Shown in pieces: positions 14,361-29,400 of a stretch of DNA of 64,000 bases. This DNA is from Actinokineospora sp. NBRC 105648 (GTDB lineage Bacteria; Actinomycetota; Actinomycetes; Mycobacteriales; Pseudonocardiaceae): assembly GCF_030269645.1 (NCBI RefSeq), contig NZ_BSTR01000002.1, positions 62,001-126,000 of the forward strand, written 5' to 3'. Positions within the stretch are counted from its first letter, which is position 1. Each line of letters starts with the position of its first letter. A model generated the notes under the pieces. That model did no database searches, was not told the origin of the DNA, and saw only the letters and a program-made list of their open reading frames with translations. The translations under genes were made by a program, and so were the position numbers.

Positions 14361-14930
14361 CTAGCGCCCGCCCGGGGGTGCGGGCTCGGTGCTGAACTGG
14401 TCCTGCCACGTGGCGCGCGCACCCGAGTCACCGATGCGGTAGACCTGGTAGCAGGCTCCACCGGCGGCGAGCACGGCGAGGACCGCGATCACCGTGGTGA
14501 CCGGCCGGGAGGCGGGTGCCAGGAACGCTCGGCGGCCCACGGACTTCGCCGCGGGGGCGACCTTCGGCGAATCGTCCGCATCGGACGCGGCGGGTCGTGC
14601 CGCGGCGGTGCTCTCGCGCTGGCGCCACCAGACGACCAGAGCGAGGACCGCCACCGGGATGGCGACGTACAGAGCCGTGTCGCCGAGTTCGGTGTGGGCC
14701 TGGAGCAGCGATGAGCGGGTGACGCGCCGTTCGAGCCATTCGCCCGCGTCGGTGGTGATCGGGACCAGGATCAGTGCGAACGCCGCCAAGAGCGCGTTGG
14801 GCCCGGCGAGCGCGCGCCGCGCTTTCCCCCAGGCAACGCAGAGGACCAGCAGCAGCGCGCTCAACGGCAGCAGCACGACGATCGCGTGCACGAGCAGGAT
14901 GTGGGCAGGCAGGCCGTTGAGAGTGCTCAT
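14361..14930 (-). CDS. small multi-pass membrane protein (DUF2231-like)
   Basis: A 189-aa protein with about four membrane helices: LLVHAIVVLLPLSALLLVL (9-30), LAAFALILVPITT (~45-60), DTALYVAIPVAVLALVVWW (~84-103) and VTTVIAVLAVLAAGGACY (~143-162). It starts LNGLPAHILLVHAIVVLLPL, the pattern of DUF2231 membrane proteins whose conserved His may bind haem. ATG 14930 is the first in-frame start matching this. It lies upstream of the two-component pair, so it may belong to the same redox locus. Function inferred only. Confidence 0.7.
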   Translation of the reverse strand: MSTLNGLPAHILLVHAIVVLLPLSALLLVLCVAWGKARRALAGPNALLAAFALILVPITTDAGEWLERRVTRSSLLQAHTELGDTALYVAIPVAVLALVVWWRQRESTAAARPAASDADDSPKVAPAAKSVGRRAFLAPASRPVTTVIAVLAVLAAGGACYQVYRIGDSGARATWQDQFSTEPAPPGGR

Positions 14931-15141
14931 GGACTTCCTTCGCGGCAGGGTCTTGACGTCGCTGATCACCGTTGCGCAATCGGGTGAGCGCTCGATGTGA
15001 CCGCGGTGAGAATCGGGTAAGACGTGCCCGTCGGGACGGGGCGGAACAGGTGCGTCCCGACGACGCTGCGGACCTGGCGTGTTCCCCACTCCGACCGGGG
15101 TTGTCGGTGCGTGAGTCCCGGCTCCGGCGGCGCGGCCCTGA

Positions 15142-16365
15142 TCACCGCTGCCCGCCGGACCGCTCAGCGGGCGCCCTTCGCCTCGGTCGCGGTTCACCCA
15201 GGCCCGCGATCCACCGCCGCGCCCGGTCGAAGTTGTCGCACGCCTCGCGCCGCAGGTTCGCGCTCGTCTCGGCCACCTGCTTTGCGACACTCGCCCGCTC
15301 CCGGATGAGGTGCGCGAGCTTCTCGGTCAACTCCGCCGCGTCGAAGGGCTCGTTGATGTCGACGCTCCAGTGCGCCAACCGCAGCATCGCGGCCAGTTCC
15401 CCCACCTTCACGTCGTACACGAGAGCGAACGGCGGAACTCCGAGGATCGACGCCATCACGATCGCGTGCAAGCGCTCGCTGACGACGATGTCGCACTTCT
15501 GGATCACCCGCGCGGCATCCCGGGGCGTCGAGAGCTCGTGCTGAACGAAGGCGATCGAGGGGACTCGGGCGGCGAACCCCGCGAGGACCTCGGCGTCGTC
15601 GTGCTGTTTGAAACCGGTCTGCATGGGCAGCGCGTGAAGCTCGATCGGATGTCGTGCGTCGAGGGATTCGAGGGCTTGTGCGAGCCGGGACAGGAAAAGC
15701 TCCCAGTTCGCCGGGTTCTCGACGTCGAAGTTGAGGTTCAGCGCCACCCGCACCGGCGCGGGCGAGCCGTGGGACGCGGCCTGCTCGGTGCGCGAGGAGT
15801 CCTGCCCGTCGCCGAGCAGAGACTTGGCATCGACCGAGAACACCGCGTCGGTGGCAGGCCGCGGTTCGACGCCGATCGAGCGGCAGAGCGCGAGCGACCG
15901 CTCGTCGCGCACCGTCAGTTCGTCCACCTGGGACAGGATCATCCGGGAGAGACGCAGCCCGCGCGGCGTGCGCACGGGACCGACGCCCACGTTGAGCATC
16001 GCGATGGGCTTTCGCGCGACGCGCCGGGTGAACGTGACGATCGCGAGGATCATGAGCAGTGTCGAGTACCGGTTTCGCCCAGTGCCGGCGTTCAGCTCCT
16101 TGATGATGGAGCCACCGCCGAAGCACAGGGCGTCGCAGCCGACCAGGGCGCGCAGCAACCGCGTGCGGTCGGCCGCGGTGTCGATGACAGTCACGTCGAA
16201 ACGGCCTGCCAACTGGGTTCGGGTGAAGGCGGGGTCGTAGCTGTTGACGACGTAGTGGTGCTCGGTGCCGAGCCGGGTGAGGAACGTCTCGAGCAGCAGC
16301 TCGTCGCCGATGTTGTGCTGTCCGTGCGTTCCGAGGAAGACGATGCGTCGCTGCCGCGTGGTCAT
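15142..16365 (-). CDS. polysaccharide pyruvyl transferase family protein
   Basis: A 407-aa protein with the family N-terminus GTHGQHNIGDELLLETFL, a GGGSIIKE loop near residue 81 and VSERLHAIVMASILG near 300, as in CsaB/WcaK-type enzymes. These add pyruvate ketal to sugars of wall polymers or exopolysaccharide, usually from phosphoenolpyruvate. It is the last gene of the 13-kb operon and overlaps the upstream membrane-protein stop (ATGA). It suggests the operon's glycan is pyruvylated, though some family members have other roles. Confidence 0.8.
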   Translation of the reverse strand: MTTRQRRIVFLGTHGQHNIGDELLLETFLTRLGTEHHYVVNSYDPAFTRTQLAGRFDVTVIDTAADRTRLLRALVGCDALCFGGGSIIKELNAGTGRNRYSTLLMILAIVTFTRRVARKPIAMLNVGVGPVRTPRGLRLSRMILSQVDELTVRDERSLALCRSIGVEPRPATDAVFSVDAKSLLGDGQDSSRTEQAASHGSPAPVRVALNLNFDVENPANWELFLSRLAQALESLDARHPIELHALPMQTGFKQHDDAEVLAGFAARVPSIAFVQHELSTPRDAARVIQKCDIVVSERLHAIVMASILGVPPFALVYDVKVGELAAMLRLAHWSVDINEPFDAAELTEKLAHLIRERASVAKQVAETSANLRREACDNFDRARRWIAGLGEPRPRRRAPAERSGGQR

Positions 16366-19300
16366 GACGGTGGCTCCTTCGGTCGAGGCGACCGTCCACT
16401 TCGGTCGTGGTGGTCATCGTGCGGTGGCGCTTCACCCTCGACGTCCTCGGGATCGTCGGGATCGTCGGGCTGGAGTCGTGCGCGCCGGCGCACGAGCAGA
16501 CCGCTGAGGACCAGCAGGAGGAGGGTCAGTCCGATGCCCGTCCACTTCGAGCCCACGACGCCCCCCTCGGGCGGCACGAGGTCCTGCACATCAGCCGCTG
16601 CCAGGGCGAGCAGTTCGTCCTGGGTGAGATCGGCGTGGGCGGGATTGGCGGCGGGGTCGACGTAACCGTCGTTGGCGCCGGTGCTCGTGGTGTGTTCCGA
16701 GCACTCCAGTGTGTTCGGGTCCGTGATGGGCGTGACGTTCGCGGGCAGACCCAGGGACTGGTAGACGTCTTCCGGGACGAGCACCATCCCCTCGAAGAGC
16801 ATGGGGTTGGTGTCGGTCTTGTCGATGGCGAAGGTGTGCGTTCCGGCGCTCGCGTCGACGACGCCGAGGTCCTGGAAGCCGTAGCCGGAGTTGACCGGCA
16901 CGAACTCGCCCGGGATCGCGGCCTCCAACCGCTCGACGGACATCCCGGACATGTCGACGGCGACCCTGTCCTTGTCGTACACGTCGGCGGCCGGGAACAG
17001 CTTCACCTCCGCCGCCGGAGAGCGCAGTTCCAGGGTCCGGTCGTAGGAGAGCGACGCCGAGGTGACGTGCAGGGTGTTCGCGGTGTTGGCCGTGCGCATG
17101 AGCACGCGGTACCTCCCCGGCTCGGCGAGCTTCACCGGAACGCTGACCTGCGTCGCCCGCGGCAGCCCGATGAAGGAGCCGCGCAGCGTGCCGAACACCC
17201 CGGGAGTGATCATTCCGGTGCGGTTCCACTTGGTGTTCGAGAAGAGCAGGAACGACCGGAACATCGGTGAGAGGTAGTAGCTCGACGCCACCACGTCCGC
17301 GTTGAAGGCGAACATGCGCGCGTCCGGCCCGGAGAATGCCTCCGGGTGCCGGAGCAGGTACAGGTCGAGCGCGGAGGTGTGCCGGTCGTCGGTGAGCAGC
17401 ATGGTCCGCTCCCCGTCGAGGACCCGCTCCGGGTCGGCGTACGGCGTGAACTCGAAGGTGTAGCACCGGCTCAGGTCGCGCCTGCTGAACACCAGGTCGA
17501 GGTAGCTCTGCCAACTGGAGTCCACCAGCAGCGTCGGCCGATCGGCCTTGGGCTGATCGGTGATCTCGTAGAGCGCGTAGCTGCTGTTCTCGAAGCGCAG
17601 CGCGACGTCGTCGGGCAGCCGGGCCAGAGCGGGCTCGACGTAGCCCTCGACCTTCGGCAGGTACTCGGCGCCCACGCCGCGGTTCGAGTGGATGCGGCGG
17701 TTGACCACGACGTACCGCACCTCGATGTCGCGTGCCACGTTGATCCACCAGTCCTGCTGGTAGTACAGGCCGCGCAGGATGAGGAAGAACTCGAACTTGT
17801 TCTTCACGTCGCCGGTGAGCCCGTAGTAGTAGCTCGGCTTGTCGAGGTAGTAGATGAAGAACTTGTCGATGAACTTGTGGTCGACACCGTTGGCGTCGGT
17901 CACGAGCTTCGCGGTCTCGGTCGGCGGGAGCACGACCGTCTTCCCCTTGGGCAGCTGGTTGAGCGCCTGCTTCAGGTGCTTGAGGTCGTCGAGCGGGATC
18001 GGCGCGAGGAAGCCCGCCATGTCGCCCGAGGCGAAGACGCTGCGGTACGCGTCGTTGGACCAGAAGGGCGAGAAGAACACCGCGCCGATGCACGCGGTGG
18101 CCACCAGCTTGAGGGCCAGTTCGCCACTGGCGAAACGCGCGAGCGCGGCGGTCAGCGACCGGTGTGCCGAAGGCCGTTTCCGCGTGCGCGGACGCGTCGC
18201 GCGTGGCAGGCCCGCACGCGGCCGGCTGCCGCTCACCACATCGATCAGGTAGGCGAGGGTCAACGACATGACGAGCGGTGCCAGCATGAAGAGGATCAGC
18301 TGGAACCGGTGCGGGAACCGCAGGACCTGGACGACGGTGCCCGCCGCCGTGACGAGGAGGTCCCCGATCGCGGAATGGCTGTCGTTCGCGGTGATCGCGA
18401 GCGCGGCCAGCGTTCGGTGGAAGGTCGGGAACCACAGGGGCTCGCCATACCCGATCGTCGCCCACAGCGCGAAGGCGACGGCCACGTAGATCACGCCGAG
18501 CAGCTGCCGGTGGGCCCGCGTGCGGAAGAGCCGCCGTCGCACCACCGGCACGGCGAGGGGCACGAACAGCAGCAGTGTGTAGACGGCGTCCGGGTACCGG
18601 GGGACCTTCACCAGGTAGTCGCCGTAGAGGATCTTGTCCGTGATGCCCGCCAGGTCCCAGGACAGCTCGTGCAGCCACGACACCGAAGCGTCCCGGATGA
18701 AGTAGTAGTCACCGGGAACCGTGTCGGTCAGGTTCGACACCCCTGCCAACGCCACGTACTTGACGAACAGCGCGTAGGGGATGAGGGTGATCGTCGCGTA
18801 TATCGCCAGCGCGATCGACACCCGGCCCATCGTGGTGGTGCTGAAGCGGCGCTGCCACGCGCGCAGGCGTCGCCCCCGCCCGGACCCGACGGTCAGTGTC
18901 CACACGCGGCGGGGCAGCAGGACCAGGCGTGCCGGGCCGCCCCGGCGGAGCCAGTGGCCGATCTCGCCCAGCAACAGGGTGAGGACCGTCAGCCCGAGGA
19001 AGAGGCTGAAGAGGATGAGGTAGTGGATCGCGGGGTTCAGCAGCGTGGCGACGCTCGCGATCACCATGTACCGCTTCCACGCCCGTCCCGCGAACAGCAG
19101 GGCGTAGAGCATCCACAACGCCGAGACGGTCATGAGCACCAGACCCAGGATCAGCGTGTAGAAGTGCGTGATCTTCGAGTAGACCATGATCAGGTAGATC
19201 AGCGACACCGGGAAGAACGTCGCCAGGTAGACCGCCTGCGACGACAGCGACGTGAACACGCGGTCCGCGAACCGGGCGACGGTGAGGTACGCGGCCCAGA

Positions 19301-19703
19301 ACAGCGACGGGATCACGATGAGGATCGCGAAGGGCAGAACCGGGTAGTAGCGCAGCCACGTCGTCAGGAACGCGTAGCGCACCCGGAACTCGTAGCCGTT
19401 GACCAGGTCGTTGAACTGGCCGGCGGCTTGCTCCAGGAGTTGGCTGTGCCAGTTGAAGAACGGCACCAGCTCGTCGCCCGCGACGACCGCGTCGCCCCGG
19501 ATCACCGACGGGATGGCCCAGAACACGTCGCGGAAGATCACCAGCGCGGCGACGTAGTAGGCCAGGCCCGCCAGCAGGGCGATGGTCCGCGGACTGAGCC
19601 CGATGGCGCCGCCCGGCCGCGTCGGAGGTGCCGCCGCGGACTCGCGCGGGTCGGCCGCGACCTCCGGGGGCCGTGCGTGCCCGCTACGACGACGGCCGCG
19701 CAC
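16362..19703 (-). CDS. large multi-pass membrane protein with extracytoplasmic C-terminal domain
   Basis: A 1,113-aa protein of no family I can name with certainty. The N-terminal half (about 38-490) holds roughly a dozen hydrophobic helices, such as [17 protein letters not shown], with a charged DELVPFF loop early. A large polar region follows (~510-1060) rich in Tyr/Asp, including a beta-type jelly-roll-like stretch late on. One last helix [17 protein letters not shown] precedes a basic/acidic tail. The layout resembles membrane glycosyltransferases or polymerases with a sugar-binding outer domain. In this operon it could polymerise or modify the glycan. Start GTG 19703 overlaps the kinase stop by 20 bp. 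Confidence 0.65.
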
Positions 19704-22194
19704 GCGTCTCCGCTTCGACCTGGTGCGTCACGGCTTCGAGCGCGTCGCGCAGCGCGGCGAACCGCGAGGGGTCGTCGACCTGCTCGTCGGATGCCGTCTC
19801 GATGGCCAGACAGGCCGCGGCGAGCTCGGTGGCCCCGATGGCCAGGCTCGACCCGCGCAGGCGGTGGGCGAGGAAGCGCAGGTCGCCCGCCTCGCCCTCG
19901 GCCACCGCGCGTTCGAGGAGCCGCAGGTCGTCCGCGCCGCGCACCACGAAGGCGCGCAGCACCTCCGCCTTCGCCTCCGGGCCGACCTCGTCCAGTGCGC
20001 TGAACGGCACGCCGAGGTCGGCCGGACCCGGTCCGTCCTCCGCGGGCGACCGGACCTCGACGCCGAGGAAAGCCAGTTCCAGGTCGTGCGAGGTGAAGGG
20101 TTTGGCGATGTAGTCGTCCATGCCCGCGGTGAGGCAGTCGTCGCGGTCGTGGGTGGTCGCCCCCGCGGTGAGTGCGATGATGTGCGGCTGCTTGACGCCC
20201 CCGCCCGCCGCGCGGATGCGTCGCGTCGCCTCGATCCCGTCCATCACCGGCATGTGCACGTCCATCAGCACGACGTCGTAGTCACCCGATGCCACCGCCT
20301 CGACGGCGACCACGCCGTTCGGCGCGGTCGTGACCGCGTGGCCGAGCTTCTCGGCGAGTCGAGTGGACAGGTACAGGATCAACTCGTTGTCCTCGGCTAC
20401 CAGCACTCGCAACTTGCGCCGCGCCGGCCGCGCGCTGTCGACCGCGAGCGGCCGCGGAGCCCGCGGTGTGGTGTTCGAGTCCGCCGCCCGCACCGGCAGT
20501 TCCTCCATCGGGATCTCGAACCAGAACCTCGACCCCACACCCGGCGTGCTCTCGACGCGCAGCCGCCCGCCCATCAGCCCGATCAGCGAGTGGCAGATCG
20601 ACAACCCGAGGCCCGTGCCGCCGTGCACCCGGGTGATGGCGTCGTTGGCTTGGGTGAACGGCTCGAACAGCCGCCCCAGCTGATCCGCGCTGATCCCGAT
20701 CCCGGTGTCCACGACCTCGAAGCGGATCGCGCCGGGGTCGTGTCCGCGGGACACGCGCAGGCGCACCTCACCGCTCGAGGTGAACTTCACGGCGTTGCCC
20801 AGCAGGTTCACCAGGACCTGGCGCAGCCGCGCGGCGTCCCCGATGACCAGGTGGGGACAGTCCGGGGCGAAGTCCGCCACGACGGGGAGCTGCTTGCTCT
20901 CCGCGGCGTGGGAGATGACGGTCACGCTCGCGGTGACCAGCCTGTCGAGATCGAGTCGCCGCCGCTCGAGTTCGATCGCGCCTGCTTCGATCTTCGAGAA
21001 GTCGAGGATGTTGGAGATGATCTCCAGCAGGAGCGTTCCGCTCAGCGCGGCCTTCTCCACGTAGTCCCGCTGGGTCTGGTCGAGGTCGGTGTCGAGCAGC
21101 AGTTCGTTCATCCCGAGAACGGCGTTGAGCGGAGTCCGGATCTCGTGGCTCATCGTCGCGAGGAAGGTGCTCTTCGCCGATGCGGCCGCGACCGCCTGGT
21201 CGCGGGCTTGTTGCAGGTTCAGGTTCAGCTCCACCTCGCGCCGCCGTAGTCGTTCGGCGGCGACGACGGAGAGCAGCAGCCGCGCGATGCTCGCCGCCAG
21301 CGCCCCGTACGCGATGAACTCGAGCAGCAGGATCTGGCTGGTCAACTCGTTCAGGACCAGCACCGCCAGGGCGACGCTGGAGAACGCGGTGGGAGCGAAG
21401 ACGATGTAGGAGAACTCCCCGGTTCTGCGCATCGGGGGAGTCGGGGCGCACCACGACGACAGCGCGATCAGCACGGACACGAGGGGGACGAGCACGTCTA
21501 GTGGGGAGCTGTCAGGGTAGCCGCCGCCCGCGAGCGCCGAGCCCCGCGCGATGCTCCACACCACCAGGAGCAGCGCGGCCGCCATCTGCAGCCACCAGGA
21601 ACGGGTGAGCCTGCGGTCGATCGCGGCCACCTTCGCCACCAGCAGCGCGATGAAGGCCAGGGGCGCGGACGGGTAGAGCAGTTTGGCCAGCTCGCTCCCG
21701 CCGAGCTGTTCGCCCGGGGCCAGGGTGAGGTAGAAGACCGCGGCCATCAGGCTCAGCGTCGCCAGCGCACCGTCGAGCCACACCGTCGGCGACCGCCGCG
21801 AGACCCGGGCACGGGTGATCAGCACCATGGCGAGCACGAGGCTGACCGAGAAGACCAGGTAGCGGACCAGCGACGCCGTCGATCGCGAGCTGAACCCGCC
21901 GGTGCCGAGGAGACCGGTGTCGGCCGCGTCGCTCGCCACCAGGGCGGCCACGGCCAGCCCCATCAGTGCCCAGCCCGTCCGCTCCCGCGCGATGACGACC
22001 GCCCGCGCACCCAGCAGCGCGGCGCACGCGAACCCGATGCCTAGCCTGCACCCGGCGTTCCACCACTGCGCCGAGGCGGACGACGGCAACGTCCACAAGG
22101 AGATCCCGTAGACCGCCGTCAGCGCGGACAACGCGGCGAACGACCCGCGTAGGCACTGGGACCGGGACTCGAAGTAGTGCACCATTCTCGTCAC
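19684..22194 (-). CDS. hybrid sensor histidine kinase with receiver and Hpt domains
   Basis: An 836-aa protein. Residues ~15-310 hold about nine to ten membrane helices with little outside domain, then a coiled segment. HisKA has [16 protein letters not shown] (phospho-His), HATPase_c has [18 protein letters not shown] and [11 protein letters not shown]. The receiver domain ([13 protein letters not shown], phospho-Asp in [13 protein letters not shown]) is followed by a C-terminal Hpt domain with AHRLRGSS. This is a full internal phosphorelay that could pass phosphate to the stand-alone receiver just upstream (22245-22616). Start GTG 22194; ATG 22185 is an alternative. Confidence 0.88.
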
Positions 22195-22244
22195 GACTGC
22201 TGCCGCACCTCATTCCTCCACTGGTCGCGGCGGCGAACGCGGCG

Positions 22245-22616
22245 TCAGCCGCCGTTCGGGGGGAACAGTTGTCGCACCATGCCGCGCAGCGTCTCCGAGC
22301 TGACCGGTTTCGTGAGCTGGCCCGCCAGCCGCGCCGTCGTCTCGGCCGGTAGCGACGAGTACTCGATGATGCCGGTGAGCAGGACGAACGCTGCCGGGTG
22401 GGGAGACCGCTCCACCACCCGGAGAACATCGATACCGGTACCCGAGGGGAGTCGGAAGTCGGAGATCACCAGGTCGAAGTCCGCGGCGTTCAGCCGGGCG
22501 GCGGCCTCCGGCGAGTCCGCGGACTGCTCGACTGCCCATTCGAGACCGCGGAGCATGTGGCACAGGACCAGGCGCGACACGGCGTCGTCATCCACCACGA
22601 GTGCTCGGCGCGGCAT
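22245..22616 (-). CDS. single-domain response regulator (CheY-like)
   Basis: A 123-aa receiver with no output domain: VVDDDAVSR acidic pocket, phospho-Asp53 in LVISDFRLP, LLTG, and KPV at the switch Lys. ATG 22616 overlaps the STAS gene stop by one base (TGATG). Having no DNA-binding part, it must act by protein contact, as a relay to the hybrid kinase or on the partner-switch proteins encoded beside it. The link to partner switching is inferred from the operon. Confidence 0.87.
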   Translation of the reverse strand: MPRRALVVDDDAVSRLVLCHMLRGLEWAVEQSADSPEAAARLNAADFDLVISDFRLPSGTGIDVLRVVERSPHPAAFVLLTGIIEYSSLPAETTARLAGQLTKPVSSETLRGMVRQLFPPNGG

Positions 22617-22990
22617 CAGGTGGTCCCACGCGCTCGGCCGTCCACCATCGTGAAGATCTGGTCGAACTGCGTCAGGCGGAGAACGCGCATGGAATCCTCG
22701 GAGACAGGTCGGATCAGCGAGACCGAGCCGCCCGTGCGCATGCGGTCCTGCCGCGTGCGCACGAGTACCGCCAACCCCGCGCTGTCGAGGAAGGTGACGT
22801 CCGCGAGGTCGAACACCAGGTGCCCCGCGCCGGTGATGTCGGCCCGCGCCAGGCGTTCGCGCACCGCCAGGGCCTCCACCGCGTCGAACCGCCCGGCGAG
22901 GGCGATGACCGTGCGGTCCGCGGCCGAGCGCGTGACACGCAGCCGCAGCCGTGGCGGGCCCGCGTCGGTGCCGTCGTCAGAGTCCGCCAT
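22616..22990 (-). CDS. STAS-domain anti-anti-sigma factor
   Basis: A 124-aa SpoIIAA/RsbV-like protein. After a ~14-aa acidic tail comes the STAS fold, with the phosphoacceptor loop DVTFLDSAGLAVL (Ser about residue 70). It would bind the RsbW-type kinase when unphosphorylated and release its target. It overlaps the kinase gene 22977-23408 by 14 bp. Two STAS proteins flank one kinase and one phosphatase in this operon, as in partner-switch modules with two antagonists. Confidence 0.88.
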   Translation of the reverse strand: MADSDDGTDAGPPRLRLRVTRSAADRTVIALAGRFDAVEALAVRERLARADITGAGHLVFDLADVTFLDSAGLAVLVRTRQDRMRTGGSVSLIRPVSEDSMRVLRLTQFDQIFTMVDGRARGTT

Positions 22991-23408
22991 CCCTGCCCCC
23001 TCGGTCGATGCGCAGCGCCAGCTCGTTGCCTGACCTGGTGCGGCGGTAACTGAGCTCGCTCACGAGGGCGCGTGCGATCTTGATGCCGTAGCCGCGCTCC
23101 TGCAGTACTCCCTCGGCGGGGTCGGGGATCGCGGCGAGGTCGAACTCCGCGCCGCGATCCCGGACCCAGACCGTCAGGTCGGTGGAGCTGAGGACGAGGC
23201 TCAGCTCGATCACGCTGTCCGCCGGGAGGTGGGCGTGGTCGACGACGTTCATGCACACCTCGTGCACCGCGAGTTCCATCCGGGACAGCAGCGCGTCCGC
23301 GGTCTCCGCGTCGACGTGCCGCATCGCGGTTCGCAGCCATGGTCCGATCTCGCGGGTGGAGAGGACGTCCGGCGCGAGCCGGAGCGTCGCGGTCGTCACG
23401 CTCGTCAT
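22977..23408 (-). CDS. RsbW-type anti-sigma serine kinase (GHKL ATPase)
   Basis: A 143-aa GHKL protein. The N-box MELAVHEVCMNVVDHAH keeps the Mg-binding Asn, and later come DRGAEFDL and GYGIKIA (G1 and G2 boxes). It would phosphorylate the STAS proteins and, when free of them, hold a target such as a sigma factor. No sigma factor is encoded in the operon, so the target is elsewhere or non-sigma. ATG 23408 overlaps the phosphatase stop (ATGA). Confidence 0.87.
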   Translation of the reverse strand: MTSVTTATLRLAPDVLSTREIGPWLRTAMRHVDAETADALLSRMELAVHEVCMNVVDHAHLPADSVIELSLVLSSTDLTVWVRDRGAEFDLAAIPDPAEGVLQERGYGIKIARALVSELSYRRTRSGNELALRIDRGGRDGGL

Positions 23409-24802
23409 GACGCGGTGCCCCGGTGCTTCACGACGACGAGTGTCGAGTCGTCCGAGGCGGGCGTGCCTGCCGCGAACTCGGCCACCGCGTCGAAGACGCT
23501 GTCGCCGATCCGCGACGCGGGCAACGCGTGGGTGCGCTGGCAGAGCGCGTCGAACCGGTCGTACCCGAACATCGCCTCCGCCGGGTCCGCCTGCTCGACG
23601 AGCCCGTCGGAGCCCATGACCAGGCAGTCGTCGCCGCGGAGGGTGAAGGTCGAGAGCGCGGGAACCCGGTGGCGGACGATGCCCGTCGGCGGCAGGGACG
23701 CGGGAACGGCACTTGCGATCCCGTCGTGCACGTGGACCACCGGCGAGTGGCCCGCGTTCACCAGCGACACGGTGCCGCTGCCCTCGCAGACGAATCCCAT
23801 CACCAGGGTGACGAAGAGCCCGGCGTCGTCGAGGTGGTCGAAGAGTTCGTCCTCCAGCTGGGCGTAGGCGTCGATGACCGATCTCCCGCGGTGCGAGAGG
23901 AAAGTGGCCCGACAGGTCGTGACCGCCCGCGTCATGAGGATCGCGGCGGGCAAGCCCTTGCCTGCGACGTCGCCCACCGCGAACCAGATCGCTTCGTTCG
24001 TCTGCCCGAACACGTAGAAGTCACCCCCGGCGAGCGACGCGGGCTCGGTTCTCGCGAAGATGTCGAGGGTCGCGGACGTCGGGGGAGCGTCCGTGATGAC
24101 GGACTGGGCGAGCACGGATGCCAGCTCGTGTTCGCGTGCGACGGTGGCGGCCACCTGTTCCCGGCGGTGCGTCTCGTTGAAGGCGAGCAGCACCCCGAGT
24201 GCCGAGTTGATCGCCTCGACGAGCGGGATGTCGGTCGTCACGAACGGGCGATCAGTCGGGCGGAAGTAGGCCACGTGCCAACCGGTCGTGATGTCGACGT
24301 CGAGGCTGCCGACGATCGCGCTGTCGCCCGCGACGGTCCGCAGCAGCTCGCCGGGCCCTTGGGCGATGGCCTGGCGTGCCACCTCCGCGCACACCTCGAC
24401 CGCAGAGGCGTCGCCTGCGGCGTCGACCACCGTGTCCGCCTGCAGGAGCAGCACCGCGGACGCGTCCGTGAGCGCGAGCGCCCTGCCGAGCAGCAGACCG
24501 ATCGCCTCGTCACTGGCGACGCCTTGGAAGTCCACCTTCGCGATCGTCTTCATGGCGAGCAGGCGGTCCTGGCTCGCGACAAGCGCTTCGGTGAGCGCTG
24601 CCTGGAGCGACTCGAGGTCGCGGATGGCTCCGCGCACCACCGCCGCCGCGCGGTGGGCCGCGACGGTGGACCGGGGTGGTGAGAGCCGGTCGCACGACGC
24701 GGCGGTGAGCAGCAGCTCGATGGCGGCATCGGCGGAGAGCGGACGCGCCGCGTCGGTGCGCTCGGGGTGGTTGACCTGTGATGCCTGCCGGCTGGAGGTC
24801 AC
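23405..24802 (-). CDS. RsbU/SpoIIE-type serine phosphatase with GAF-like sensor
   Basis: A 465-aa protein. GTG 24802 overlaps the STAS stop (GTGA), setting the start; the longer frame upstream reads through the STAS and GT2 genes. Residues ~95-235 look like a GAF-type sensor (DASAVLLLQADTVVD). The C-terminal PP2C domain shows SLAGGDFYVFG, FAVGDVAGKGLPAAILM, MGSDGLVEQ and ASDDSTLVVV, the metal-binding Asp residues of SpoIIE phosphatases. It would dephosphorylate the STAS proteins and so switch the module on when the sensor is engaged. Confidence 0.9.
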   Translation of the reverse strand: MTSSRQASQVNHPERTDAARPLSADAAIELLLTAASCDRLSPPRSTVAAHRAAAVVRGAIRDLESLQAALTEALVASQDRLLAMKTIAKVDFQGVASDEAIGLLLGRALALTDASAVLLLQADTVVDAAGDASAVEVCAEVARQAIAQGPGELLRTVAGDSAIVGSLDVDITTGWHVAYFRPTDRPFVTTDIPLVEAINSALGVLLAFNETHRREQVAATVAREHELASVLAQSVITDAPPTSATLDIFARTEPASLAGGDFYVFGQTNEAIWFAVGDVAGKGLPAAILMTRAVTTCRATFLSHRGRSVIDAYAQLEDELFDHLDDAGLFVTLVMGFVCEGSGTVSLVNAGHSPVVHVHDGIASAVPASLPPTGIVRHRVPALSTFTLRGDDCLVMGSDGLVEQADPAEAMFGYDRFDALCQRTHALPASRIGDSVFDAVAEFAAGTPASDDSTLVVVKHRGTAS

Positions 24803-25122
24803 AGCGCCTCCGTCGAGGTGTGCTCGATGGTGAACAGCGGAGCGAGTTCGGTGATCTCGAGGATCACCCGCACCGGGTCGGACAGGTCGACGAGGACCAC
24901 CTCGCCGTCCACCGCCCGCGCCGCCTTCTGCAGCCGCACCAGTTCGGACAGCGCGGTCGAGTCGACGAAGGCGACCTGTGCGAGGTCGACGTGCAGCACA
25001 TTCGCCTCGGCGGTGACGAGCGGGTGGACGACGCCGCGGAACGCCTTCGCCTCGTGGGCGTCGAAACGGCCGACGAGGTGCACGATGCGACGCGACGGTT
25101 CGAGTTCGGTGCGGATTATCAC
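24799..25122 (-). CDS. STAS-domain anti-anti-sigma factor
   Basis: A 107-aa protein that is essentially one STAS domain: RIVHLVGRFDAHEA at the N-terminus and the phosphoacceptor loop QVAFVDSTALSEL (Ser55, with Thr56 next to it). It lacks the N-terminal tail of the other STAS protein (22616-22990). It lies 36 bp after the GT2 gene and is coupled to the phosphatase. It probably competes with the second STAS protein for the RsbW-type kinase. Confidence 0.87.
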   Translation of the reverse strand: MIIRTELEPSRRIVHLVGRFDAHEAKAFRGVVHPLVTAEANVLHVDLAQVAFVDSTALSELVRLQKAARAVDGEVVLVDLSDPVRVILEITELAPLFTIEHTSTEAL

Positions 25123-25158
25123 GGGTGGGCCCCTGTCGAAATCGGTGGATGGTGTGGC

Positions 25159-25965
25159 CTAGGCGTCGCGCCCCTCGGCGGGCCGGGTGTGCGGGTACCT
25201 GCCTCGGATGTCGTTGAGGCGGATCACCAGCAGGTCGCGCAGGAACTGCGCGCTCACCTTGGCGGCGTCGACGGTCGACCCCGGCGCGTCGATCCACTCG
25301 ACCGGTACCTCGGCCACCCGGTAGCCGAGGTGGTGCGCGAGGTACAGCACCTCCAGGTCGAAGGAGAACCCGTCGACGAGCTGCGTCGAGAACAGCGCCC
25401 GGGCGGCGTCCTGCGTGAAGAGCTTGAACCCGCACTGCGTGTCGCTCACGGTGATCCCGAACCCCCGGGACACCACCGCCCGCAGGCCGCGGCTGAGGAC
25501 TCGGCGGGTCAGGCTCTTGCCGCTCACCGCCGCGCCGTCGGCCCCGCGCGAGCCCGCGACGATGTCGAACCCCTCGCCCACGAGCGCGGCGAGTCGATCG
25601 AACTGCTCGATCGGGGTCGACTGGTCCGCGTCGGCGAACAGCACCAGCTCGCCCCGGGCGGCGAGCACACCGCGTCGCACAGCGCTTCCCTTGCCCCTGT
25701 TCCGCTCGGCGACCAGCAGGCGCAGGTTGGCGAACCTGAGATCGCGCACGAGGGAGATCGTCGAGTCGGTCGAGCCGTCGTCCGCGATGATCAGTTCCCA
25801 GGGTTGCCCGCGCGTGCTCATGTGGGTCGCGATCGCGCCGATCGTCGGCAGGATCCGCCACTCCTCGTTGTACGCCGGGATCACCACGGACACGACCGGC
25901 GGACAGGGGAGCGGCTCGGTGACCCAGGCGCGATAGGCGCGGTAGGGGGACAGCACCTCGGTCAT
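25159..25965 (-). CDS. GT2 glycosyltransferase (dolichyl-P-glucose synthase-like)
   Basis: A 268-aa GT-A fold transferase: VSVVIPAYNEEWRI at the nucleotide site, IIADDGSTDST, ERNRGKGSAVRRG, and the metal-binding ELVLFADADQSTP. DTQCGFKLF follows in the acceptor region. This pattern fits transferases that load a polyprenyl phosphate with a sugar from a nucleotide sugar. No membrane helices are evident. ATG 25965 overlaps the flippase stop (ATGA). It likely supplies a lipid-linked sugar for the operon's glycan. Confidence 0.87.
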   Translation of the reverse strand: MTEVLSPYRAYRAWVTEPLPCPPVVSVVIPAYNEEWRILPTIGAIATHMSTRGQPWELIIADDGSTDSTISLVRDLRFANLRLLVAERNRGKGSAVRRGVLAARGELVLFADADQSTPIEQFDRLAALVGEGFDIVAGSRGADGAAVSGKSLTRRVLSRGLRAVVSRGFGITVSDTQCGFKLFTQDAARALFSTQLVDGFSFDLEVLYLAHHLGYRVAEVPVEWIDAPGSTVDAAKVSAQFLRDLLVIRLNDIRGRYPHTRPAEGRDA

Positions 25966-27251
25966 GACACGGCCTCCTGGGGAGCGCGGGCGGGCGTCGT
26001 CGTCCCCCGACCGGCGAGCGCCCGTGCCCCGAGCACGGTGACCAGCACGGCCATGGTGATCGACTGGACGGCGATCAGCGCGGCCATGTCCCGGTGCCAG
26101 ACGAGCAGGAGCACGAGCTGGACGAGCGAGGCGCACAGGAGCAGCCACGACTCGGTCGCCCGGGACTGCGAGAGCCGGTAGCTGGCGACGAGGTTGCCCA
26201 CCGCGAACAGCGTCGTCGTGCCCGCGTACGCGGCCATGGGGACCGACAGGCCCCCGTACGCGGGCCCGAGTACCGCCGCGAGCACGGGTCCGCCGATCCA
26301 GAGCGCTCCCGCGGTGCACACCACACCGATGCCGACCACCGCCGCGATGCCGGTCCGCACCACCTCCGGCGACTCACGCCCGGCCGCGTGCCGCCGCGCG
26401 ACGACGGGGAAGACGACCGTCGCCACCGACCAGGCCAGGAAGAAGACGGCCCGGCCGACCAGTGCCACGGCGGCGTAGACGCCCGCCTCGGTCGGGGTGA
26501 GGAATGCCTTCGCGACGAAGATGTCGCTGTTGTTCACGATGATCTGGCCGATCAGCAGCACCGACACGAGCCCCGCGTAGGCCCGGACCTCGGCGAGGCT
26601 GATCCCGTCGCCGGTCCGGTCGCTGCGCGAGCTGTTCGCGACCCGCACGACGGCGTAGGTGGCCACGAACGACGCCGACAGGGCGACGGTCGCGCCGGGC
26701 ACACCGCCCCCCAGCGACACGATCAGCACGCCGATCCCGACGCGGGTGACCATCTCCACGACGAAGGACAGCGCGAGGGGCGCGAACCGGAGCCGTGCTT
26801 GCAGCACACCGCGCTCCACGGCCTGGACCAGCCAGAACGGGATCCCCGCGGCGAGGATCACGAACGGCCACGGCGAGGCGGTCTGGAACGTCGCCGACCA
26901 CCACGGCGCGCCGAGCCCGAGCGCGAGGCCCGCGACGGCGCCGGAGACCAGCGCGACGCGGCGGAGTCGTCGAGCCAGGAGGTCCGAGTCGCCGGGGAAG
27001 CCCAGTTCGTCCGACCGCGCGATGAACCGCACCGCCACGAGCTGCAGGCACAGCGCGACCGAGGTGAGACCGAACAGCGTCGTCACCATCAGGTTGGCGT
27101 CCGAGAACTCGGCCGGGGTCAGGACCCGACCGAGGAAGAGGCTCAGCAGGTAGTTGCCCGCGTTGGCGACCAGCATGGCCGCCGCCAGCATCGACCCGCC
27201 GGTCGCCAACCCGCGGCCCGTGCTCGTCGTGCGCTCCCCGTCCGGTCTCAT
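25962..27251 (-). CDS. polysaccharide flippase (MATE/Wzx-like)
   Basis: A 429-aa protein with about 12 hydrophobic helices, starting with GSMLAAAMLVANAGNYLLSLFLGRVLTPAEF, the N-terminal signature of polysaccharide-biosynthesis flippases of the MOP superfamily. It would move lipid-linked sugar units across the membrane. ATG 27251 overlaps the GT4 gene stop (ATGA). It keeps near-normal length and no frameshift. Together with GT4, GT2 and the pyruvyl transferase it makes a small glycan-assembly set. Confidence 0.87.
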   Translation of the reverse strand: MRPDGERTTSTGRGLATGGSMLAAAMLVANAGNYLLSLFLGRVLTPAEFSDANLMVTTLFGLTSVALCLQLVAVRFIARSDELGFPGDSDLLARRLRRVALVSGAVAGLALGLGAPWWSATFQTASPWPFVILAAGIPFWLVQAVERGVLQARLRFAPLALSFVVEMVTRVGIGVLIVSLGGGVPGATVALSASFVATYAVVRVANSSRSDRTGDGISLAEVRAYAGLVSVLLIGQIIVNNSDIFVAKAFLTPTEAGVYAAVALVGRAVFFLAWSVATVVFPVVARRHAAGRESPEVVRTGIAAVVGIGVVCTAGALWIGGPVLAAVLGPAYGGLSVPMAAYAGTTTLFAVGNLVASYRLSQSRATESWLLLCASLVQLVLLLVWHRDMAALIAVQSITMAVLVTVLGARALAGRGTTTPARAPQEAVS

Positions 27252-28474
27252 CGGCGCGCCCGACGTTCAAGCAGTCGTTCGATGTGGGCGAGGTGCCACT
27301 GCACGACCTCGGACATCGGGATGCCGGTCGCCGCGGCGAAGTTGCGGCGACCCAGCGCCGTCCGCTTGACGTGGTCGTCGAGCACCTCGGCGAGAGCGTC
27401 CGCGAGGCTGATCGGGTCGCCCGGTGCGAAGTAGACGCCGCGAAACCCCTCCTCCTCGATGACGTCGACCAGGTCGCCGATCTGCGGCAGCACGACCGCG
27501 CGCCCGTACTCACCGGCTTGGTGCAGGACGCCCGAGCTGCCCGTCGTCGACGTGTAGGGGAACGCGACGACGGAGGCCGCGAGGAACATCCCGGCAACCT
27601 GGTCCTCGGCGATGTAGCCGGGGAACTCGACGTGCGGGACGTCGGCGTACCTGGCGGCGGCCGCGGACATGTACCCGCCGGAGTTGGGACTGTCCGTTCC
27701 GGCGAGCACGAGCCGCAGATCGTCGTAGCCGCGCCGGAGCAGCTCCTGGTACGCGGCGACGAGCATGTCGACTGTCTTGTAGGTGCCCCACTTGCCGAAC
27801 GCGGTGATCGTCCGGCGCCCGGGCGGGACGGTGAAGGAAGGCGTGGCGACGTCCTCGAAGCTCCCGTGCGGAGCGAGGATGGCGTTTTCGGCGCCATAGC
27901 TCGAACGGAGGAACTCCACGTAGCGGGGAATGGTGAGCGCGACCAGATCCGCCCGGAGCAGACAGCGCGTGAGCACGCGACCGGCGAACGTCAGGAACCG
28001 CGCGGTGATCGCGGATCCGGCGAAACCCGCATCCTTCATGTCGACGTTGTCGGCCAGGTTGTGCAGCACGAGCAGCGTCGGTACGGACCGAGCGCGAAGC
28101 AACGCGGGGATCAGCAGACCCAGTGCCCCCGGGACCCGCTTGTCGCCGAAGGAGGCGAACTGGAGATTCAGCAGGACGGCGTCCGGTCCGCTCCTCGAGA
28201 TCTCCCGGGGTACCCGAAGCACGTTCGCCGGGTCGTTGAACCGCCAGCAGGGACGGAACGAGACCTTCGGCATGGGTTCCGGCGCGCCCGCGTCCGTGCG
28301 GTCGGAGTAGACAACCACCTCACCGACCTCGGGCAGTCGTGAGAGGTGCCGCACCAGGTGCAGGCCGAACTCGTTGAGGCTGTTGCGGCCGGGAGGGAAG
28401 GCCGTGACGACACCGATTCGGAGGGCGCGGTGAACGGCCCCGCTCATCGCTGGGGCCGACTGCGAAATCGCCAT
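27248..28474 (-). CDS. GT4 family glycosyltransferase
   Basis: A 408-aa GT-B fold transferase: N-terminal GVVTAFPPGRNSLNEFGLHLVRHL, middle ITAFGKWGTYKTVDML, and C-terminal SVVAFPYTSTTGSSGVLHQAGEYG (the donor-site Ser/Gly-rich loop of GT4 enzymes). ATG 28474 has GGGAGGGG 6 bp upstream. It is the first gene of the 11-gene coupled operon that ends at 15142, so its promoter region (28475-28724) probably drives the whole set. Confidence 0.88.
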   Translation of the reverse strand: MAISQSAPAMSGAVHRALRIGVVTAFPPGRNSLNEFGLHLVRHLSRLPEVGEVVVYSDRTDAGAPEPMPKVSFRPCWRFNDPANVLRVPREISRSGPDAVLLNLQFASFGDKRVPGALGLLIPALLRARSVPTLLVLHNLADNVDMKDAGFAGSAITARFLTFAGRVLTRCLLRADLVALTIPRYVEFLRSSYGAENAILAPHGSFEDVATPSFTVPPGRRTITAFGKWGTYKTVDMLVAAYQELLRRGYDDLRLVLAGTDSPNSGGYMSAAAARYADVPHVEFPGYIAEDQVAGMFLAASVVAFPYTSTTGSSGVLHQAGEYGRAVVLPQIGDLVDVIEEEGFRGVYFAPGDPISLADALAEVLDDHVKRTALGRRNFAAATGIPMSEVVQWHLAHIERLLERRARR

Positions 28475-28724
28475 TCCCCTCCCACCATGATATTCGCGCT
28501 CTCGCGATCGTGTTCAGAGCGTAGGGCATGTTCCACCCGGATGCGAGGGTGGAGAAGGCGCGAAAATGACTGGTGTACGGGTCGCGCGGAATGTCTGGCC
28601 CATCGGTATCGAATAGCAACGTATGGCATAGCTACGTCACCCAATAGTGTTGAGTTTATCCCACTCGTGTGGGTGAATATTTCCGAAATTGATCGGTGAT
28701 TCGCGAGTTTTTCGGCCCACGAGC
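28475..28724. promoter_or_regulatory. AT-rich leader/promoter region of the glycan and partner-switch operon
   Basis: This 250-bp stretch is visibly less GC-rich than anything around it (runs such as GAATATTTCCGAAATTGATC). It separates the first operon gene from a broken MFS gene. It most likely contains the operon promoter on the minus strand. I could not fix a -10/-35 pair or a sigma-B-like promoter by eye. No gene is supported here. Confidence 0.4.
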
Positions 28725-29180
28725 GCCTCGCTCACGCTTTTGGCTCTGATCTTTTCACCTCCGACTCGATGATCAACACAAACGAGCGGGAGGGCGCCGG
28801 GACGGTCACCACCGCGACGATCCCGGCCAGGACCAGGTAGGTGCCACGCCGGTCCAGGTGACTCACCAGCCAGGCTGTCAACGGGGCGAACGTCGTGCTG
28901 GCCAGTCCCCCGGCCAGCGTGAGCGGTGAGCACCCGGACGTGGTCGGGGGCGTGCCACCGGGTCAACGCGGCGAAGGCGGGCAGGGTGGAGCACCCCGCC
29001 CATCGCCACCCCGACCCCCAGCCACACCACCACGAACCACACCGGGTCAGGTGCGGTGGCGAACGCGACAGCCACCGCCAGCACCGACCCCGCCGTTGTC
29101 ACCCCGTGCGGTCCGCGTCGGTCGATCCACCGCCCGACCGGGATACCAACCACGCCACCGACCAGTCGCGCGGCCGAGAA
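28725..29180 (-). pseudogene. truncated MFS exporter of the ars locus
   Basis: The minus strand reads FSAARLVGGVVGIPVGRWIDRRG then VAVAFATAPDPVWFVVVWLGVGVAMGG, typical of a major-facilitator protein. Later pieces (TRWHAPDHVRVLTA, then LASTTFAPLTAWLV) need two more frames. The N-terminus is cut by an IS3 remnant (29176 onward), and the C-terminal half is absent. MFS exporters often follow ArsO-like genes in actinobacterial ars operons, so this was probably the exporter of the arsenic locus next door. Confidence 0.6.
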
Positions 29181-29400
29181 CGCCGCGATGGAATCCTTCT
29201 TCGCCCTGCTGCAGAAGAACGTGCTCGACCGCCGACGCTGGGACACCCGCGACGAACTCCGGTTGGCGATCGTCACCTGGATCGAGACCAAATACCACCG
29301 ACGACGCCGACAACGGAGCCTCGGGCGACTCACCCCAGTCGAGTTTGAGACCATCTACAAGGCCGCTCAGGCGGCTTGAGAACCATCAACCCCGAGTGTC
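29176..29400 (+). mobile_element. IS3-family remnant (C-terminus of transposase OrfB)
   Basis: The plus strand encodes NAAMESFFALLQKNVLDRRRWDTR and, further on, YHRRRRQRSLGRLTPVEFETIY, the last ~67 residues of an IS3 DDE transposase with its natural stop at 29379. The end-like sequence after it overlaps the 3' end of the oxidoreductase gene on the other strand. The rest of the element is gone. It interrupts the MFS gene of the arsenic locus. Confidence 0.8.

Follow-up and report, generated by a model that had tools for sequence, protein, structure and literature searches.

Partner switches are best known as controls of sigma factors. In Pseudomonas SiaABCD, a PP2C phosphatase, a kinase and a STAS protein have a non-sigma output by contact, the target being a diguanylate cyclase. 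Three-component glycosylation by CsbB-GtcA-YfhO combines a GT2 enzyme that makes a polyprenyl-phosphate sugar, a flippase and a GT-C enzyme. Herein, we describe an operon of 11 genes from Actinokineospora sp. NBRC 105648 that holds both a partner switch and the genes of a glycan pathway. It lies in a stretch of 64,000 nucleotides (contig NZ_BSTR01000002.1, positions 62,001 to 126,000), hereafter called the window. The operon has the same three glycan components as CsbB-GtcA-YfhO, but that system uses a small GtcA-type flippase and has no partner switch, and the GT-C protein found here matched no Pfam family. The operon also stands apart from SiaABCD, since the SiaA model gave 26 bits here against a cut-off of 700.

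Glycan loci tied to a partner switch have been described in other bacteria. The syp locus of Vibrio fischeri is alike in component types: it has a hybrid kinase, a receiver, a Ser kinase/phosphatase and a STAS protein of its own, the last bearing a phosphosite Ser. This STAS protein, SypA, acts below transcription, and its target is given as unknown (PMC10120452). The phyla and the enzymes differ from those of syp. Kinase and phosphatase are separate here, whereas SypE is a fused kinase-receiver-phosphatase, and our loci have two STAS proteins and, in Chloroflexota, RsbW-like domains fused to the flippase. Similarly, the hmp partner switch of Nostoc punctiforme (HmpU/V/W) is linked to motility and polysaccharide, and its STAS target is described as unknown (PMC8256260). 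A flippase under phosphorylation-dependent control is known from mycobacteria, in which CwlM, when not phosphorylated, binds MurJ, a MOP flippase that has a pseudokinase domain in the cytoplasm (PMC6180346). The MurJ/CwlM/FhaA system differs in its PknB-type kinase, FHA domain and peptidoglycan lipid II, and has no STAS or RsbW protein. Polysaccharide-output partner switches and a phosphorylation-dependent flippase partner are already known. In the open-access literature, outside which most subscription papers lie, no paper that joins both, and none on a partner switch acting on a flippase, was found among the matches listed.

We consider it probable that the operon belongs to a horizontally spread cassette for the synthesis and export of a surface glycan, which is probably pyruvylated, and that this cassette controls the export step itself. 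From comparative sequence evidence, it also seems rather likely that the switch works by contact with the flippase. The fuller proposal, that the STAS proteins, under RsbW/PP2C and the phosphorelay, open and close a Wzx-type flippase by contact and that the Chloroflexota flippase contains an RsbW-like docking domain, appears evenly poised. A first-pass annotation of the window had called the combination with its own phosphorelay unusual and suggested that the module gates glycan assembly by protein contact. Unusual it is, but not unprecedented, since V. fischeri syp joins like components. Contact, as we infer it, gains support from the flippase fusion and the STAS phosphosite pattern reported below.

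Linkage of the partner switch to glycan genes

The window encodes a PP2C phosphatase, a HATPase_c_2 serine kinase and a STAS substrate together, and the phosphorylatable Ser following Asp is conserved in STAS, with an Asp-Ser pair at the phosphosite of both window proteins. The window RsbW keeps the N, G1 and G2 boxes, the phosphatase keeps its acidic motifs and the receiver keeps its acidic pocket. The glycan genes (GT4, flippase, GT2, GT-C and pyruvyl transferase) are interleaved with the series STAS-PP2C-RsbW-STAS-receiver-hybrid kinase. The hmp genes of Nostoc are not known to be interleaved with flippase and glycosyltransferase genes, unlike the operon here.

The possibility that the operon is unique to the window genome was rejected, because relatives were found. 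The GT-C protein occurred in 1 of a further 149 genomes in the family sample, in 3 of a further 393 in the class sample, and in at least 27 loci of a species-level collection. A search with the fused Chloroflexota flippase found flippases of at least 47% identity in 10 of 249 genomes of its class, counting the genome of the query itself. The relatives (among them Actinophytocola, Rhodococcus, Agreia, Microbacterium, Mycolicibacterium, Acidimicrobiia and Chloroflexota) are scattered across two phyla, Actinomycetota and Chloroflexota. The window GT-C protein is 79-80% identical both to that of Agreia, which belongs to another order, and to that of Actinophytocola xanthii, a member of its own family Pseudonocardiaceae; this equal identity, together with a tree of relatives that mixes families, indicates horizontal spread.

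In total, 37 loci were compared: the window, the class relative G461, 27 loci from the species-level collection and eight Chloroflexota flippase neighbourhoods (the last two sets carry L numbers). RsbW, PP2C and STAS stand beside glycan genes in 22 loci, of which 17 have all five glycan genes, four have flippase, GT2 and GT4, and one, a 6-kb contig, has the flippase only. In seven loci (L029, L035, L037, L041, L047, L048 and L086), STAS is present and RsbW/PP2C were undetected in the stretch examined. The remaining eight are short or truncated at a contig end: in L042 the cut falls beside STAS, and L028, L032, L034, L036, L038, L039 and L044, which have no counted STAS, are uninformative either way, being short or having contig ends near the genes. 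At L086:7523-8907, reading found two toxin-antitoxin-like gene pairs in the place held by STAS1, PP2C and RsbW in related Chloroflexota loci.

Loci that keep the switch with the glycan genes show at least four gene orders. The uninterrupted order of 11 genes was seen in the window and Actinophytocola xanthii only, and it is split or rearranged in the other relatives. Agreia, several Microbacterium and Rhodococcus have two divergent units, in which the hybrid kinase heads the GT-C and pyruvyl genes. In a second Microbacterium type, STAS-PP2C-RsbW heads GT-C-pyruvyl-flippase-GT2-GT4, and most Chloroflexota have GT2-GT4-STAS-PP2C-RsbW-STAS-flippase, with receivers whose position varies. In the 20 kb retrieved for L080 and L084, neither the GT-C nor the pyruvyl gene turned up, and from these two loci GT2, GT4 and flippase with the switch are a possible core.

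Co-occurrence was assessed in a sample of 394 class genomes, with the best few candidates per genome scored. Flippase (E<=1e-20) and GT-C protein (E<=1e-6) were found in the same four genomes, and the PP2C ortholog (E<=1e-30) in two of these four and in no other. Conservation of the regulatory genes without the glycan genes, which the first-pass annotation had named as contrary evidence, was thus not seen. Pairwise identities of eight cluster proteins correlated with those of the GT-C protein at r 0.90-0.94, as expected for co-travelling genes. Collectively, these comparisons support well that the switch is dedicated to this glycan pathway. That it is instead a passenger, an unrelated regulatory operon riding with glycan genes on a mobile island, is very improbable: the patchy distribution and family-mixing tree do speak of horizontal spread and such correlations would arise for any co-travelling genes, but the linkage outlasts rearrangement across two phyla, the PP2C search of the 394 genomes gave no orthologous module without glycan genes, and the passenger reading is at odds with the fusion and with a phosphosite pattern that tracks kinase presence.

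Flippase fusion and the STAS phosphosite

Five Chloroflexota flippase frames of 691-722 codons, two of them read stop to stop, carry HATPase_c_2 in frame (whole-protein E 4.6e-12 to 3.7e-18). An N-terminal part of about 270-310 residues with two HATPase_c_2 stretches is followed by the flippase. One fused gene lies on a 4.67-Mb contig, and another encodes a protein just 47% identical to the query. A separate RsbW is also present in four of the five fusion loci, the fifth, L042, being cut. A STAS match was located within 1.5 kb of all 10 orthologous Chloroflexota flippases and of none of the 14 distant flippases that the flippase search also gave; the profiles derived partly from the cluster's own sequences, including loci of two of the ten genomes, and four further matches to distant flippases, which had no locus, were left out.

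By alignment, the phosphosite Ser is present in 40 of 40 STAS proteins from the 22 loci with RsbW and PP2C. Among nine STAS proteins of loci without RsbW and PP2C, the phosphosite is Arg or Ala in seven; the two that keep Ser are from L042, where the contig begins, and L086. Fisher's test of phosphosite against kinase/phosphatase gave p 4e-7, a naive value that ignores kinship. A paired comparison ahead of the GT-C gene shows the same joint absence: L031 has STAS(Ser)-PP2C-RsbW, and L029 has STAS(Ala) alone. The count leaves out a partial STAS match in L039 and those of L035, L047 and L048, which were weaker than E 1e-8; on reading, the latter three also have no Asp-Ser pair. Retention of STAS where kinase and phosphatase are missing suggests that STAS acts as the effector, the unphosphorylated form being the permissive one.

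Several observations weigh against the flippase as the contact target. The fusion was seen in Chloroflexota only, and the window flippase stands alone. In three of the five fused sequences, the first ATPase copy has no N-box (G2 is kept) and the second has no G2 (N and G1 are kept), which may make the fused part a dead platform; the AlphaFold2 model was poor over this part (predicted local distance difference test, pLDDT, 25-65). Four of the seven phosphosite losses come from related mycolicibacteria and two from a single locus, so the number of events is probably about three. L086, in which the STAS Ser is kept and RsbW/PP2C are undetected, is a genuine exception. GT2 and GT4 are linked to STAS1 as tightly as the flippase is. 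Finally, DNA-binding response regulators beside some relatives' clusters point to transcription, and three proteins of the window genome exceed the SigB/F/G cut-off of 234 bits. Transcriptional control may coexist with the switch. The idea that the fused domain is an active kinase was not adopted, as each copy misses one ATP-binding box; given the missing boxes and the separate RsbW, the fused domain seems more like a STAS docking platform than a working kinase.

Sigma factors and glycosyltransferases as alternative targets

It is possible that the partner switch acts by freeing a sigma factor or another transcription factor whose gene lies elsewhere and that the operon is its regulated target, a reading that we judge unlikely. 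Release of a sigma factor is the textbook output of RsbU/RsbV/RsbW, and the regulators that adjoin some clusters fit with it. A SigB/F/G match above the cut-off was found in 9 of 26 genomes searched. Of the 15 searched that have the full module, four, including the window genome, exceeded the cut-off and two more came near it, at 209-215 bits. However, eight of the 15 gave nothing above 142 bits, and one metagenome-assembled genome gave nothing better than E 4.5e-7. The matches below 142 bits are in frames of 402-540 codons and appear to resemble housekeeping sigma factors. In Agreia and three Microbacterium genomes, the cluster RsbW outranked every other HATPase_c_2 match by nine to ten orders of magnitude and is therefore probably the sole partner-switch kinase of these genomes. 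A SigB/F-type target seems unlikely in these organisms and is possible in the window genome. Moreover, sigma release leaves the flippase fusion unexplained. The fusion, the phosphosite pattern, the sparse SigB/F/G matches and the STAS-flippase adjacency favour an output by contact that does not involve sigma.

Alternatively, the STAS proteins may target the glycosyltransferases (GT2 and/or GT4) and not the flippase, which we find improbable. STAS1 directly follows GT2 or GT4 in the window clade and most Chloroflexota loci, GT2-GT4 remain with STAS in loci that gave no GT-C or pyruvyl gene, and GT2 and GT4 are one protein in L041. In addition, all4160 of Anabaena is described as a glycosyltransferase with an N-terminal STAS domain (PMC8256260). 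Nevertheless, the sole kinase-like fusion found is to the flippase, and STAS2, or STAS2 plus receiver, lies directly ahead of the flippase in Chloroflexota loci.

Operon layout and glycan enzymes

The 11 genes occupy 15142..28474 of the window, all on the minus strand (Table 1). The junctions overlap in eight of ten cases, by 4, 4, 4, 4, 14, 1, 20 and 4 nt, and the other two are gaps of 36 nt (GT2/STAS1) and 50 nt (receiver/hybrid kinase). The GT2 and PP2C starts were set at 25965 and 24802, as the longest mechanical open reading frames (ORFs) begin too far upstream. Coordinates, strand and Pfam assignments agree with the 11 co-directional genes, gene families and junctions overlapping mostly by 1-20 bp that the first-pass annotation had reported. 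Its statement that the operon has no sigma factor also held, for the Pfam scan matched sigma-factor families in none of the 11 operon proteins or 10 flanking ORFs. Separate promoters between 25.1 kb and 22.2 kb, which the same annotation had named as contrary evidence, were not matched either. In the scan of 14800-29400, one sigma70-like match was found, against 0.3 expected by shuffles, and none was inside the operon; both results are weak evidence in a high-GC actinobacterium. A gene for a DUF2231 membrane protein (window 14361-14930) lies on the same strand, 211 nt downstream of the pyruvyl transferase, and was judged to be outside the operon.

Table 1. Features of the operon and its upstream region in the window.
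Feature	Position	Strand	Supporting match or motif
Sigma70-like promoter match	28487..28516	-	12 nt before GT4 start codon
GT4 glycosyltransferase, first gene of the operon	27248..28474	-	Pfam Glyco_trans_1_4 E 1.4e-17
Wzx-type MOP-superfamily flippase	25962..27251	-	
GT2, ArnC/DPMS-like	25159..25965	-	Pfam Glycos_transf_2 E 2.6e-25, longer start scanned
STAS1, anti-sigma-antagonist type	24799..25122	-	Pfam STAS E 5.6e-16; phosphosite FVDSTAL
SpoIIE/RsbU-type PP2C phosphatase	23405..24802	-	Pfam SpoIIE E 2.8e-34; GGDFY, GDVAGKG, SDGL, DDST motifs
RsbW-type serine kinase	22977..23408	-	Pfam HATPase_c_2 E 5.9e-20; N-box HEVCMN, DRG, GYG boxes
STAS2	22616..22990	-	Pfam STAS E 8.7e-13; phosphosite FLDSAGL
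Stand-alone receiver domain	22245..22616	-	Pfam Response_reg E 1.7e-14; acidic pocket, Asp, Lys motifs by reading
Membrane hybrid histidine kinase, HisKA-HATPase-REC-Hpt	19684..22194	-	Four Pfam domains; membrane N-terminus by reading
GT-C-fold membrane enzyme, 1,113 aa, C-terminal CBM6/35-like beta sandwich	16362..19703	-	
Polysaccharide pyruvyl transferase, CsaB-like	15142..16365	-	Pfam PS_pyruv_trans E 1.2e-26

The best solved relatives of GT2 were ArnC (E 3.1e-18) and dolichol monophosphate mannose synthase (E 1.9e-13), and it is probably a polyprenyl-phosphate sugar synthase. The flippase has a MOP fold close to that of WzxE/MurJ. An alignment profile search of PDB with the flippase gave no match. 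The pyruvyl transferase scored 142.7 bits with the CsaB model, below the cut-off of 213. Annotation of the 1,113-aa protein by sequence was dropped, as no match was obtained in Pfam, NCBIfam or PDB sequences, even with a 28-row profile; fold comparison, the sole approach that gave an annotation, assigned it to GT-C. Foldseek rows that linked its C-terminal part to Cry proteins were read as a common CBM-like sandwich. In GT-C glycosyltransferases, the first outer loop holds one or more acidic catalytic residues. A candidate pair in the 1,113-aa protein, D77-E78, comes past the first helix and is invariant in 28 of 28 aligned sequences.

Some relatives have fused or additional glycan genes. GT2 and GT4 share one frame at L041:13163-15106, and a single frame of Mycolicibacterium iranicum (L037:7557-10043) comprises flippase and pyruvyl transferase. 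In two Chloroflexota loci (L043:12829-15447 and L046:12913-15432), a large protein with 3-keto-disaccharide hydrolase-like domains (scanned in L043) is encoded directly past the GT-C gene and may be an outer partner of the glycan.

Sensor genes and neighbours

The sensor genes vary among relatives, indicating a constant core with exchanged sensors. An H-NOX-like gene adjoins a kinase gene in seven loci from mycolicibacteria and Acidimicrobiia (L030, L035, L036, L037, L041, L047 and L048); two of the seven were scanned by Pfam and matched HNOB at E ~1e-33. These neighbours suggest nitric oxide or oxygen as an input of the switch, in parallel with the HnoX-controlled input in V. fischeri (PMC12369376). 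The second Microbacterium type has an HTH-receiver protein plus another kinase, and an OmpR-like regulator was recognised by reading in mycolicibacteria. In Actinophytocola xanthii (L027:6985-7491; also L014), an in-frame internal deletion has left the first ~43 residues and the Hpt part of the hybrid kinase, a natural Hpt-only variant, and the other ten genes were all matched. A protein of 320-330 aa from the endonuclease/exonuclease/phosphatase family is encoded after the switch genes at L022:33-1031, with members in L024, L025, L028, L040 and G461; one of them was scanned by Pfam.

Proposed mechanism and significance

Considering the folds and families of the enzymes, GT2 would make a polyprenyl-linked sugar and GT4 would add a sugar. 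The Wzx-type flippase would carry the lipid-linked product outward, where the GT-C enzyme would transfer it, and the pyruvyl transferase would decorate the glycan. For the control of export by contact, the reading that we prefer, the hybrid kinase and receiver would sense a signal and tune the RsbW kinase/PP2C phosphatase pair, and the balance of this pair would set the phosphorylation of the conserved Ser on the two STAS proteins. Unphosphorylated STAS would dock on the flippase, or on a GT2-GT4-flippase assembly, and allow flipping; phosphorylated STAS would not.

The polysaccharide-tied partner switches of Vibrio and Nostoc have an unknown target. Here, the kinase-like fusion, with the absence of the phosphosite where the kinase is missing, names a concrete candidate, a Wzx-type flippase. 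If this is true, a post-translational gate on glycan export would exist in two phyla and would offer a candidate answer to the target of SypA-type STAS proteins. Flippase gating would then join the controls of bacterial surface glycans in actinobacteria, mycolicibacteria and Chloroflexota.

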